Assembly: GCA_025454495.1 (NCBI GenBank)
Contig: JALOOI010000004.1
Location: 1-47,893, forward strand
Origin: Anaerolineae bacterium
GTDB lineage: Bacteria; Chloroflexota; Anaerolineae; Aggregatilineales; Phototrophicaceae
Direction: 5' to 3'
DNA: 47,893 bases
A program made the translations under genes and the position numbers. Shown here piece after piece: positions 37,283 through 42,974 of this stretch. The notes below the pieces were generated by a model. The model was given only the letters and a program-made list of their open reading frames with translations, ran no database searches and was not told the DNA's origin. How positions within the stretch are numbered: position 1 is the first letter of the stretch; each line of letters begins with the position of its first letter.

Positions 37283-38488
37283 CTAACGACTGTAATTCCA
37301 GCCAAAATTGTCATTGGTGTAATCCAGCGGCACGGCCACCACCAGATGCGCGGTGTTGGTGGTGCTCACCAGGATCAGCGGTTCGTCGATGTTCTCCGGG
37401 TTGCTGCGATCCTGCGGCTCGCTGGCCGGGATCAACACCAGGTCGGACAGGATTTCCGGCCGGCTCTGAATTTCGTAGCTGTCCAGCACGTCCCCCGTCT
37501 GACGTGAGAGCCAGTACACAAAGCCATCGCGGGAGGCCACCACCACCATATCCTCCGTCACCAGCGGGCCCGGGCGAATGCCGCGGGTGGCGGCTTTCGT
37601 CGCCCACACCTGGGTCATATCCTCCGGGTTAATGGCGAAGACATAGCCGCTGAGATCCGTCACATACAGCAGGCCGTCGTACAGCACCGGCGTGCTCCAC
37701 ACCCAGTTATTGGCCTTAAAACTGGCGACGATCTCGCCGGCGGTGGAGATTTTATACACATGGTGCGAATAGCTGCCCACGTATAAAAAGCCGTCGTGGT
37801 ACAGCGGGGTCGCGCCGGCCAGCCCCTGCAAATTCACCGGCTCCTCCCACACGGCCGCGCCCGTTTCGGCATCGAAAGCGTACAGATGATGATCCACCGA
37901 GGACACATACAGCACGCCATCCACCAGCAGCGGGGCCGACCACGCACCATCGCGGGTGATGGCCGTCCAGCGCTCGGCATACGTATCCCGATCCAGCGCC
38001 ACCACGCTGCCGAATTTCAGCGGCACATACAGCGTATCCTCGCTCACGGCCACATCGGCAATGACGGGTGCCGGCAGCGGAATGCCGGCGGTGCTATCGG
38101 GGCGGGCCCGCAGCATGTCCACCGTCAGCAGGCGATTGTTATACGCCGGCAGCAAATACAGCGCCTCCCCCAGGTCCAGCCCGCGGGCGAAGAACTGGGC
38201 ATTTTCGTACTGGTGCCCGTCCAGCGTCCAGAACAGCGGGTTGCCGCTTTCGTCGGTACGGGGGTCGCCGCTGGCATCTTCCAGGCGGGCCAGGGTGCCA
38301 TTGTGCGGCTGGATGAGCGTGACCACCTGATTGTAGGCCACCAGCACGCGCAGCTTACCGTTCAGTTCAATGGGCTGCATCACCGGCCAGCTTACGCCGA
38401 TGCGCGTCGGCGCACAGCCGGTGGCCACCAGCAGCACCGCCACCAGCACCATCAGCAACGAAGAAAGTCCACGTTTGCGGGTGTTCAA
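37283..38488 (-). CDS. PQQ-repeat beta-propeller lipoprotein
   Basis: The protein has 401 residues. The signal peptide ends in a lipobox, VATGC, with Cys25 as the lipidation site. The rest is a beta-propeller of PQQ/BamB-like blades: APLLVDGVLYVSSVDHHLYAFDAETGAAVW, ATPLYHDGFLYVGSYSHHVYKI, and STPVLYDGLLYVTDLSGYVFAINPEDMTQVWA each show the strand-turn-WA pattern. It would sit outside the cytoplasmic membrane. BamB is part of outer-membrane assembly in proteobacteria, but no Bam genes are here and the role is unknown. It lies 3 bases after yidD and 21 bases before yidC, so it belongs to the operon. Confidence 0.85.
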   Translation of the reverse strand: MNTRKRGLSSLLMVLVAVLLVATGCAPTRIGVSWPVMQPIELNGKLRVLVAYNQVVTLIQPHNGTLARLEDASGDPRTDESGNPLFWTLDGHQYENAQFFARGLDLGEALYLLPAYNNRLLTVDMLRARPDSTAGIPLPAPVIADVAVSEDTLYVPLKFGSVVALDRDTYAERWTAITRDGAWSAPLLVDGVLYVSSVDHHLYAFDAETGAAVWEEPVNLQGLAGATPLYHDGFLYVGSYSHHVYKISTAGEIVASFKANNWVWSTPVLYDGLLYVTDLSGYVFAINPEDMTQVWATKAATRGIRPGPLVTEDMVVVASRDGFVYWLSRQTGDVLDSYEIQSRPEILSDLVLIPASEPQDRSNPENIDEPLILVSTTNTAHLVVAVPLDYTNDNFGWNYSR

Positions 38489-39545: not shown

Positions 39546-41108
39546 ATGCCTGCTCATCCCCTGGCACGCAATTTTACCATCACACCGGACGACATCGAGT
39601 ATTTAACCGGGGTACTCCTGGAGCAGGAAACCCCCATGCTCACCGAAGAACTGGCGCTGCTGCTGCTGGATAAACGCCTGACCGATGAAAAAGAAGCGCT
39701 GGAAGCCCGCTACCGCGGCACGCGGGTGTATCACCCGGTGGCGCATTACGAAACCGGCGAGCGCCTCATCTTCACCGAAATGGACGATGCCACCGCCACC
39801 GTGCGCGCGGTGCGCCCGGGCGACAATGCCGATTATGGCACCTACCGCGTGATCGCCGTGGATTTTGACGATAAAACGCTGAACCTGGCCGGCGGCCTGC
39901 GCGAATTTGCCAGCGATTTCGTGCCCGAACACCCGCTGAACCAGGCCCGCATCGGCCATGCGCTGACGGCCGACGGCAGCAGCGCCACCAGCCGCGATAT
40001 TCTGCACTCCGACTATAAAACGCTGATGATTACCATGCACGAAGCGCTGCAAAAAAGCGGTGTCCTCATGCGCGTGGCCGGCTACTGGTTCCCCCGTGAC
40101 CTGGTGATGGATATTGACGTGGGCACGCTGCACCTGGCGGAAGCCGTGCTGGATATGGCCAGCGGCGGCCCCCTGCCCACCCGCGACATCATCGAGCAGG
40201 TGGGCGGGGTGGGCAGCGCCCCCATGACGCTCCAGGTCTTTTCGCTGAACCTGGCCATGAGCCGCGATAACCGCTTTGATGAGGTGGGGCCCGCCGGTGA
40301 GGTGCTGTGGTACCTCAACCGAATGGAACCCGACCCCGTGCGCCGCATCCCCGACCTGCTCCAGTACCGCGCCATCACCTACAACGAAGACCTGCTCAGC
40401 GATGAGATGGACGACCTGGAAACGGAACTGGATGACGAGCTGACCGATATTGATTTTGAAGGCACGCTGAAAAAAGCCACCTCCACCCTGCTGTACCCGC
40501 ACCGCCGCGCCGGCACGCTGCCGCTGAATGCCAAAACACGCACCATCTTCCCCACCGGGCGCACGCCGCGAATTCATGTGGCGCTGGTGGATGCCACCGA
40601 CGGCGAACATTTCCCCGGCTGGGTGGTGCATGAGCATAAATATGTGTACGGGCTGGAGCCGTACTACGCCAAACACCGCCTGCCGGTGGGCGCACGCCTG
40701 AGCGTGGAAAAAGGCGAGCGCCCGGGCCAGATCATCCTGAGCTACGAGGGCTACAAACCACGCACCGAATACATCAAAATCTTCATCCCCGGCGACCAGA
40801 TTCAGTTTGAAAATCGCCGCCGCGCCATCGGGGCGGCCTATGATGAACTGCTCATCTTCGGGGTGGATGACCTGGCAGCGCTGGATACCATGGTGAAGGC
40901 GCACCAGAAGCAAAGCATGGTGGCGCTGCTGCGCCTGCTGCTGGCCGAACTGGGCCGGCTGTCGCCCCAGGGCACCGTGCATGTGGTCACGCTGTACAGC
41001 GTGATGAACGTCTTCCGCCGCTGCCCGCCCGGCCCGGTCTTCGCGCTGCTGCGGGCCAACCCCGAATTTGAAGATGTGGGCGATCATTACTGGAAACTGA
41101 GCCAATAG
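39546..41108 (+). CDS. unknown protein with HARE-HTH-like regions, first of a three-gene cassette
   Basis: The protein has 520 residues. I do not recognise the family. The N-terminus (TPDDIEYLTGVLLEQETPMLTEELALLLL) looks helical. A middle block (about 155-265) reads PLPTRDIIEQVGG, then SLNLAMSRDNRFDEVGPAGEVLWYL, like the HARE-HTH/RNA-polymerase-delta type winged helix. The last 60 residues end NPEFEDVGDHYWKL, a second similar pattern. A strongly acidic segment (DDLETELDDELTDIDFE, about 292-310) lies between. No signal peptide, membrane helix or catalytic motif is visible, so it is probably a soluble nucleic-acid-associated protein. The next two genes follow by 20 and 14 bases. Confidence 0.65.
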   Translation: MPAHPLARNFTITPDDIEYLTGVLLEQETPMLTEELALLLLDKRLTDEKEALEARYRGTRVYHPVAHYETGERLIFTEMDDATATVRAVRPGDNADYGTYRVIAVDFDDKTLNLAGGLREFASDFVPEHPLNQARIGHALTADGSSATSRDILHSDYKTLMITMHEALQKSGVLMRVAGYWFPRDLVMDIDVGTLHLAEAVLDMASGGPLPTRDIIEQVGGVGSAPMTLQVFSLNLAMSRDNRFDEVGPAGEVLWYLNRMEPDPVRRIPDLLQYRAITYNEDLLSDEMDDLETELDDELTDIDFEGTLKKATSTLLYPHRRAGTLPLNAKTRTIFPTGRTPRIHVALVDATDGEHFPGWVVHEHKYVYGLEPYYAKHRLPVGARLSVEKGERPGQIILSYEGYKPRTEYIKIFIPGDQIQFENRRRAIGAAYDELLIFGVDDLAALDTMVKAHQKQSMVALLRLLLAELGRLSPQGTVHVVTLYSVMNVFRRCPPGPVFALLRANPEFEDVGDHYWKLSQ

Positions 41109-41128
41109 CGGCGAAAGGTCTTTGCATC

Positions 41129-41572
41129 ATGCAGCCAGGCAAACCCAATATTCTGCTGAAACCCACGCTGGATACACGCTTCCACATTGATTATGAGTGG
41201 TGGCAGCGCGAGCAGCAGCCGGGCGATTTGCGTACCTACATGCTGACGCACCTGCCCCCGGACAAACGCGATTATTTCCAGAAGCAGGAGCAGGATCGCG
41301 TGCTGGATTATGTGCATCCGCAAACCGGCGAAGTGTTCCGGCTGGATGAACTGGGGCTGGCCATCCAGGAAGCTGCCCGCCAGCCCGATTTTATCAACCC
41401 GCAGACATCACTGGTGGAGAGCATCTTTCGGGTGTTTCTGGCCAATGGCAATATCCCGCGGACCCCGCGGGAACTGGCCAAAGACACCGGGCGCGATGCC
41501 ATGACCATCCTCAAAACTGTCGGCGGCATCAAGGTCTATAAAGGCATTCGCCCCTATCAGCCCGAATCGTAG
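41129..41572 (+). CDS. small protein with C-terminal helix-turn-helix, second gene of the cassette
   Basis: The protein has 147 residues. The N-terminal part contains aromatic and charged stretches (FHIDYEWWQREQQPGD). The C-terminal part (about 105-140) reads TPRELAKDTGRDAMTILKTVGG, which fits a helix-turn-helix with the turn at TGRD and a following wing KVYKGIRP. It is possibly a DNA-binding protein. Family not recognised. Flanked by the 520-residue and the 141-residue proteins on the same strand with short gaps, it is very likely co-transcribed. Confidence 0.65.
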   Translation: MQPGKPNILLKPTLDTRFHIDYEWWQREQQPGDLRTYMLTHLPPDKRDYFQKQEQDRVLDYVHPQTGEVFRLDELGLAIQEAARQPDFINPQTSLVESIFRVFLANGNIPRTPRELAKDTGRDAMTILKTVGGIKVYKGIRPYQPES

Positions 41573-41586
41573 AGGAGAATCGGTAC

Positions 41587-42012
41587 ATGGCCCGTGTCAT
41601 CAACACCAACAGCCCGCAGAAGCGCCGCAATCATTTGATGCGTACCATCGCGGAGATTTTGCGCGGCCTGGGGCAAAAACACAGCATCGACGACGAAGCC
41701 CGCGATATGGCCGCCACCATCGTCTTTTGCCTGCGCGACATTGACGACACCATCAACGAATCGATCCAGGCGTGGGAAAAGCGCAATTACTACAAAAAAG
41801 CGGATGACTTCCAGGAAAAGTGGTGGTGGGCGGCCCAGTATGCGCTGCGGGTGGAAAAGCTGGTGCGCGAGGCGAAATGGGAAGACCTGCCGGCGGTGAT
41901 GATGAAGCTGTTCCCCTATTTTGCCGAAATCGAAATCAACAAGCCCATGCGCGATGAAAAAGACTGGCTGGGCGGTTACGATAAACTGATGGCAGAACCG
42001 CCCCGCGCCTGA
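41587..42012 (+). CDS. small all-helical protein, third gene of the cassette
   Basis: The protein has 141 residues: MARVINTNSPQKRRNHLMRT at the start, then long amphipathic helices, one of them Trp-rich (FQEKWWWAAQYALRVEKLV). There is no membrane helix. I recall no named family. The composition (charged, helical, no Cys) suggests a small protein-protein or nucleic-acid binding module. GAGGAG lies 8 bases before the ATG. It closes the cassette; after the stop comes a hairpin (42029-42045) shared with the convergent gene. Confidence 0.62.
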   Translation: MARVINTNSPQKRRNHLMRTIAEILRGLGQKHSIDDEARDMAATIVFCLRDIDDTINESIQAWEKRNYYKKADDFQEKWWWAAQYALRVEKLVREAKWEDLPAVMMKLFPYFAEIEINKPMRDEKDWLGGYDKLMAEPPRA

Positions 42013-42028: not shown

Positions 42029-42045
42029 GCCGGGCCTAACCCGGC
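42029..42045. terminator. hairpin between the cassette and the convergent gene
   Basis: GCCGGG and CCCGGC form a perfect 6-bp stem with a CCTAA loop that includes the stop codon of the minus-strand gene. No T-run. Confidence 0.3.
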
Positions 42046-42974
42046 GGGGTGAGGGCCTGCCAGGCGGATTGGGTGCGCTGCTGGCGCAGGCCCGCCGCCA
42101 CATCCAGCAGCGGCCGGTCACGCTGCCAGCGCTGCGCCACCGCCGCCGGCACGGTTGACCAGTCCACCCCGGCCAGCAGGTGGCCAAACTGGCGCAGGGC
42201 CCCGGCCAGCGCCAGATGCACGCCCGGCGTGGTGACGGTTTCGCTGTGGGCCAGGGTGTTCAACAGCACCAGCAGCGCCAGCCAGTCCTCCTGCTGCGCT
42301 GTGGGCCAGCCATACAGCCGCGCCAGCCGGCACAGGTAGCCCGCCAGCGCGGCCAGCACATGCACATCTTCCAGCGTGCGAAACGGCTTCACGTAGCGCG
42401 TGTAACCATCGCCCTCCAGCACATCCGCTTCGGTGACGCGCACCGCCTCCAAATGCAGTTCACCGTGGCTAATCTCCGGGATGAAGGGCAGCGGCGGGTT
42501 CATCGTCACGGTCAGCCCGGCGGCCGGGCGTTCCAGCCGCACCAGCACGAGATGTTTGTGCGCCGCTTCGATCACCCCTTCCACCGCCACCACCAGGAAC
42601 ACCTCCGCCTCCTGTGCCCCGGTGACAAAGGTCTTGCGGCCGCCCAGATGATACTCGCTGCCGTGCGGGGCCAGGTGCGCCCGCAGATCACGCGGGTGCT
42701 GGCCGCCCGTCTCCGTCACACACAGCGCCACCAGGCGTTGCGGGGGCAGCGCGGGCACCAGCCGCCGCAGCGCCGCCTGATAGCCGGCCATAAACGCATA
42801 GCCGGCCCGGTCAGCCAGAAAACCGCCCCGCGCGGCCATGAGGATGGTGTTCAAATCGTGGCGCGGGCTGTGCTGGCGATACATCTGCCACCAGTCAGCG
42901 CAGGCGGGCATGTCCGGGGCGCTGCGGGCAACCGGCAGCAGGTCGGCAAAGAGCTGCAAAAAGCTGTTGGGCAT
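42036..42974 (-). CDS. acyl-CoA dehydrogenase-like protein, shortened
   Basis: The protein has 312 residues against about 380 for the family. The middle is clearly acyl-CoA dehydrogenase-like: LCVTETGGQHPRDLRAHLAPHG and YHLGGRKTFVTGAQEAEVFLVVAV match the FAD-binding beta domain (TE..GGSD, LNG.K.FITNA). The C-terminal helical domain is short and the catalytic Glu is not evident. It may be an enzyme of a divergent subgroup or a non-catalytic relative. The lipoprotein gene lies 6 bases upstream on the same strand. Confidence 0.65.
   Translation of the reverse strand: MPNSFLQLFADLLPVARSAPDMPACADWWQMYRQHSPRHDLNTILMAARGGFLADRAGYAFMAGYQAALRRLVPALPPQRLVALCVTETGGQHPRDLRAHLAPHGSEYHLGGRKTFVTGAQEAEVFLVVAVEGVIEAAHKHLVLVRLERPAAGLTVTMNPPLPFIPEISHGELHLEAVRVTEADVLEGDGYTRYVKPFRTLEDVHVLAALAGYLCRLARLYGWPTAQQEDWLALLVLLNTLAHSETVTTPGVHLALAGALRQFGHLLAGVDWSTVPAAVAQRWQRDRPLLDVAAGLRQQRTQSAWQALTPPG

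Follow-up and report, generated by a model that had tools for sequence, protein, structure and literature searches.

A gene pair of the Anaerolineae encodes a near-universal chromosomal bacterial B3 protein that is not a restriction enzyme, together with a small winged-helix partner. The B3 protein is probably a vertically inherited, sequence-specific DNA-binding regulator that is carried on the chromosome and serves a housekeeping role. To our knowledge, B3 domains count as transcription-factor domains specific to plants, with restriction enzymes as their only bacterial relatives. In a literature search that did not extend to most subscription journals, no paper connected B3 domains with Chloroflexi, and none dealt with this protein or with an Anaerolineae regulator of such a kind. 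The pair was characterised in a stretch of 47,893 nucleotides from an Anaerolineae bacterium of the family Phototrophicaceae (GenBank assembly GCA_025454495.1, contig JALOOI010000004.1), hereafter referred to as the window.

Gene content and genomic neighbourhood

Three plus-strand open reading frames with ATG starts follow one another in the window, namely gene 1 (39,546–41,108; 520 residues), gene 2 (41,129–41,572; 147 residues) and gene 3 (41,587–42,012; 141 residues), with intergenic gaps of 20 and 14 bases, exactly as an earlier sequence-only reading had claimed. Orthologues of genes 1, 2 and 3 were found in 58, 57 and 57 of 61 close genomes, respectively, mostly at 40–77% identity, and almost all genomes of the order have them. 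Because orthologues of each are present in nearly all close genomes, sequence comparison identifies all three as real genes and not chance open reading frames. Searches of Pfam, NCBIfam and PADLOC assigned no family to proteins 1–3 at E ≤ 1, except for a match of protein 3 to DUF2458 (E 0.05) that was judged meaningless, and the proposal that these are undescribed families therefore stands for the three databases. When all members of the three alignments were compared with Pfam, merely scattered sub-threshold HTH matches appeared.

The minus-strand neighbours comprise yidD, a gene for a PQQ/BamB-like propeller, yidC and jag, and no mobile element was seen near the three genes in the window, in agreement with the chromosomal, non-mobile setting suggested earlier. 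Within the window's family, the three genes run divergently from rnpA, yidD, the BamB-like gene, yidC and jag, and rpmH/rnpA adjoin them. The propeller gene itself (37,283–38,488, minus strand) encodes a PQQ/BamB-like beta-propeller lipoprotein and sits between yidD and yidC, an order repeated in about 20 loci of the family. On the other side of the three genes, a 312-residue protein is encoded at 42,036–42,974 (minus strand), for which Pfam gives a single family above cut-off, the acyl-CoA dehydrogenase middle domain.

Genes 1 and 2 of many other Anaerolineae lie downstream of a response regulator gene and of genes that, on our own reading of the sequences, we take to encode DUF192 and LysM proteins. 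A functional tie to rpmH/yidC was considered and dropped, as that neighbourhood is restricted to the window's family.

Linkage of genes 1 and 2

Linkage was assessed in 80 loci from named MAGs, 79 of which were testable (at L109 the contig ends at once). Gene 1 was immediately followed by gene 2 in 77 of the 79, with a median gap of 20 bases, and gene 2 was undetectable in the other two (L136 and L148). It also came immediately downstream in all 12 checked loci with a short or diverged gene 1, nine of them without the B3 half of the gene. Across these sequences the gene 1–2 pair is the invariant unit, and an ancient one.

Gene 3, which encodes a Trp-rich protein (6 Trp in 141 residues), is conserved independently: it is joined to genes 1 and 2 in the window's family only, with one nearby inverted copy elsewhere (L130), and other members of the order retain it in unrelated neighbourhoods. 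It was detected in 54 of 150 class genomes. The three genes had been read as a single cassette; genes 1 and 2 do stay together across Anaerolineae, and gene 3 is linked to them solely in the window's family. The notion of a three-gene system was rejected on this ground, and gene 3 is outside the core mechanism.

Distribution and inheritance of gene 1

Gene 1 was present in 139 of 150 genomes sampled across Anaerolineae, and in 98 of the 103 best genomes of that sample, nearly always with one match per genome. Its identity was 63% within the genus, about 39–60% within the family, about 39–45% within the order and about 28–42% within the class. Since identity drops with taxonomic distance, and the gene is near-universal and nearly always a single match, the pattern of inheritance read from these sequences is vertical.

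A profile search also recovered distant relatives in other Chloroflexota, spanning the middle and C-terminal parts of the protein. The two types are tied together by a hybrid gene 1 of one family (L270 and L271, gene 2 adjacent in both), because it matches each of them: its first half shares 29% identity over 345 residues with gene 1, and its second half 23% over 371 residues with the distant type. The distant homologues at L087–L091 and L181–L183 are followed by a HEAT-repeat-like protein of about 300 residues and not by gene 2; at L181, a NAD-kinase-like gene lies upstream of the homologue.

A B3-type domain in protein 1

Protein 1 was modelled with AlphaFold2 using 71 orthologues (pLDDT 92.6, pTM 0.80). 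The assignment of residues 307–404 (40,464–40,757, plus strand) to the B3-type pseudobarrel is well supported at the level of the predicted fold, by structural comparison and by a profile-profile match. When the model was compared with the PDB (VIA-align), plant B3 domains took each of the first 16 ranks, and the B3 domain of LlaJI came 17th. The best match was the VAL1 B3 domain (6j9a; Z 10.9, rmsd 2.6 Å over 96 residues), and the plant domains included those of FUS3, LEC2, ARF1, ARF5, NGA1 and TEM1. Among restriction enzymes, LlaJI, BfiI and NgoAVII gave Z 9.4, 7.8 and 7.0, respectively. The first 17 matches rise above the general level of the comparison, which lies at Z 7–8. Foldseek returned a probability of 0.98 for VAL1 and ARF5, with weak E-values.

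The profile-profile comparison (hhalign) used nine plant B3 sequences taken from PDB entries as the target. The profile of the B3 region matched it with P 5.9e-5 and a Prob of only 65%, the profile of the whole of protein 1 matched at residues 332–400, within the structure-defined region, and protein 2, taken as a negative control, gave a Prob of 0.2%. The Pfam B3 model (PF02362) did not match the window protein and exceeded its cut-off in none of 120 class genomes, and sequence profiles of the B3 region alone and of genes 1, 2 and 3 found nothing significant among PDB sequences. Protein 1 is thus a B3 protein at fold level and falls outside the B3 family as Pfam models it.

The likeness to plant B3 factors (VAL1, FUS3, LEC2, ARF1/5, RAV1 and NGA1) consists of the shared pseudobarrel, at Z 8–10.9, and of an order of motifs that agrees with the plant profile (..LPxxxxxxxFP...D...W...YV.G....F....L..G..v....R). 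Unlike these factors, protein 1 is bacterial, shares about 10–17% identity with them, has a shorter N-arm loop, carries its B3 domain among three winged helices and an SH3-like barrel, and escapes the Pfam B3 model.

A putative DNA-contacting N-arm spans residues 317–327 (YPHRRAGTLPL; 40,494–40,526, plus strand). Its pattern, YPHRRxGTLPL, is nearly invariant over the 71 orthologues: H319 is kept in 69, R321 in 62, G323 in 70 and P326 in all 71, and position 320 is R in 52 and W in 18. By analogy with known B3 domains, this arm may contact DNA. The B3 domain has a net charge of +6 and is the only clearly basic domain of the protein; it would bind double-stranded DNA in a sequence-specific way. 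The transcription- or nucleoid-like character that had been suspected is supported, and the B3 domain itself, the chief point of interest, had been missed.

Winged helices, barrel and domain loss

The remainder of the AlphaFold2 model comprises a winged helix (wH1) at residues about 10–56, an SH3/chromo-barrel-like domain at residues 57–125, a middle winged helix (wH2) at residues 150–262 (39,993–40,331, plus strand), an acidic linker at residues 275–304 (net charge −12) and a C-terminal winged helix at residues 441–520. Net charges are −8 for wH1, −4 for the SH3-like domain and −6 for wH2, the C-terminal winged helix being neutral. Central and C-terminal helix-turn-helix blocks and an acidic segment had been described from the sequence, and the predicted structure bears them out as winged helices and the acidic linker, respectively.

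The most conserved domain is wH2, which has a fold like that of the N-terminal domain (HARE-HTH) of the RNA polymerase delta subunit (8x6g_E and 9a6y_A; Z 7.6, level with unrelated winged helices) and shares its acidic character. In contrast to delta, protein 1 is multidomain and has neither the acidic disordered C-terminal tail nor a HARE-HTH match: PF05066 matched nothing in the window's genome, and weak matches occurred in 2 of 25 orthologues (best E 0.0066). The HARE-HTH label given previously is consequently unconfirmed by sequence, the likeness of wH2 to the delta domain being one of fold only. Foldseek also gave a weak lead from the SH3/chromo-barrel-like domain to MSL3, and its weak matches to the winged helices include RNA-binding ones, SelB and Egalitarian.

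In nine genomes of four groups (f40, f44, f53 and f54), gene 1 ends after the middle winged helix, and the B3 domain and C-terminal winged helix are absent from the locus. Gene 2 still comes immediately after these short genes (L262–L269 and L272; also seen at L180). Because a gene 1 that lacks B3 still has gene 2, protein 2 would go with the N-terminal half, and B3 may be a separable DNA-reading head. Of all the evidence on the division of labour within protein 1, this loss is the most telling, and it suggests that the conserved core function can persist without B3 in the lineages that lost that half.

Proteins encoded by gene 2

Protein 2 was modelled with a pLDDT of 89.0 and bears a winged helix at its C-terminus, where a helix-turn-helix had been read from the sequence; its fold matches are weak (best Z 5.7). 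Some gene 2 orthologues give weak, sub-threshold C-terminal matches to the GDS1 and HTH_20 winged-helix models, whereas the window protein is unmatched, and no relative of its N-terminal half was found.

A search of 201 genomes of the phylum revealed gene 2 relatives in 25 genomes outside Anaerolineae, and in nine such loci examined they were not beside gene 1. These homologues carry a CxxC motif, usually plus a CC pair (L246–L253), and many Anaerolineae proteins have C..H and HC at the same positions, which the window's lineage has lost. The pattern points to a likely ancestral zinc site. At L248 and L251, the gene 2 homologues lie directly downstream of ruvC-ruvA-like genes.

Control region upstream of gene 1

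Members of the window's family carry a conserved 13-mer, AACCCRACGCTTG, that abuts a TTGCAA-like −35 box upstream of gene 1, with a TATAAT-like −10 box 18 bases beyond it. The 13-mer stands beside the −35 box in L097, L100, L103, L110, L111, L114–L116 and others, and no exact copy occurs in the window itself. Each genome contains 0–2 copies, and in several of them the copy is that preceding gene 1. The 13-mer is put forward as a candidate self-regulatory site, which such a low copy number would suit.

Discussion

With about even confidence, the complex of proteins 1 and 2 is interpreted here as a regulator of chromosomal genes, in which B3 would read DNA and the winged helices and barrel would dock partners. 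Specifically, B3 would recognise a short DNA sequence via its conserved basic N-arm, and the protein-docking modules, namely the acidic winged helices together with the SH3-like barrel, would hold protein 2 and possibly also RNA polymerase, a role modelled on the acidic winged helix of the delta subunit. Protein 2 would be the obligate winged-helix partner, and the complex would most likely regulate the transcription of chromosomal genes. The fold and the distribution of protein 1 are well supported; DNA binding, partner binding and the regulatory role are what we infer.

A broader structural role, in which the complex bridges or marks chromosomal sites such as the origin or domain borders instead of single promoters, appears rather unlikely. 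It would suit a near-universal, single-copy gene with a multivalent winged-helix architecture, and the HEAT-repeat partner of the distant homologues also fits, as architectural complexes often include HEAT-repeat proteins. The adjacency to rnpA-yidC in the window's family points the same way, since many bacteria have that locus near their origin; elsewhere in the class, however, the genes lie away from it, in the response regulator/DUF192/LysM setting, and most domains of protein 1 are acidic, unlike typical nucleoid proteins. The same adjacency, here to rpmH/rnpA, could be taken to favour an RNA- or ribosome-associated factor with winged helices in tandem that bind RNA in the manner of SelB or Egalitarian. 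This reading has a low probability: the adjacency is not conserved across the class, the SelB and Egalitarian matches extend over long stretches at very low TM-scores, and the structural match to B3 is far stronger.

It is equally improbable that protein 1 is a domesticated restriction or defence component, its B3 domain having been taken from a restriction enzyme and now reading methylated or foreign DNA. In the literature consulted, the B3 domains reported from bacteria do belong to restriction enzymes (PMC4267653), and those of LlaJI, BfiI and NgoAVII/CglI, also bacterial, have the fold in common with protein 1 and, CglI apart, were named above among its structural matches. Against this origin, no nuclease domain was found in protein 1 (Pfam, NCBIfam, PADLOC and the full-length model), no methyltransferase occurs among the recurring neighbours in the 80 loci, no helicase partner was found, and PADLOC gives no match. 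The restriction endonucleases are sporadic, whereas protein 1 is near-universal in Anaerolineae, and its class-wide conservation and vertical pattern are unlike those of defence genes. A mobile or defence origin was also sought directly, in PADLOC, viral contigs, phages and plasmids, and none was found; no relative turned up in the last three.

Returning to the regulator of chromosomal genes, we consider it an evenly balanced proposition that this phylum-old, non-restriction B3-winged-helix protein and its dedicated partner serve Anaerolineae as a core factor in transcription or in the chromosome. If true, it would represent a third branch of B3 proteins beyond plants and restriction enzymes, housekeeping in role and vertically inherited. 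A near-universal, single-copy, nuclease-free B3 protein in a bacterial class would bear on the origin of the plant B3 domains, and it would offer a way into the global control of genes in the abundant, poorly cultured Anaerolineae.
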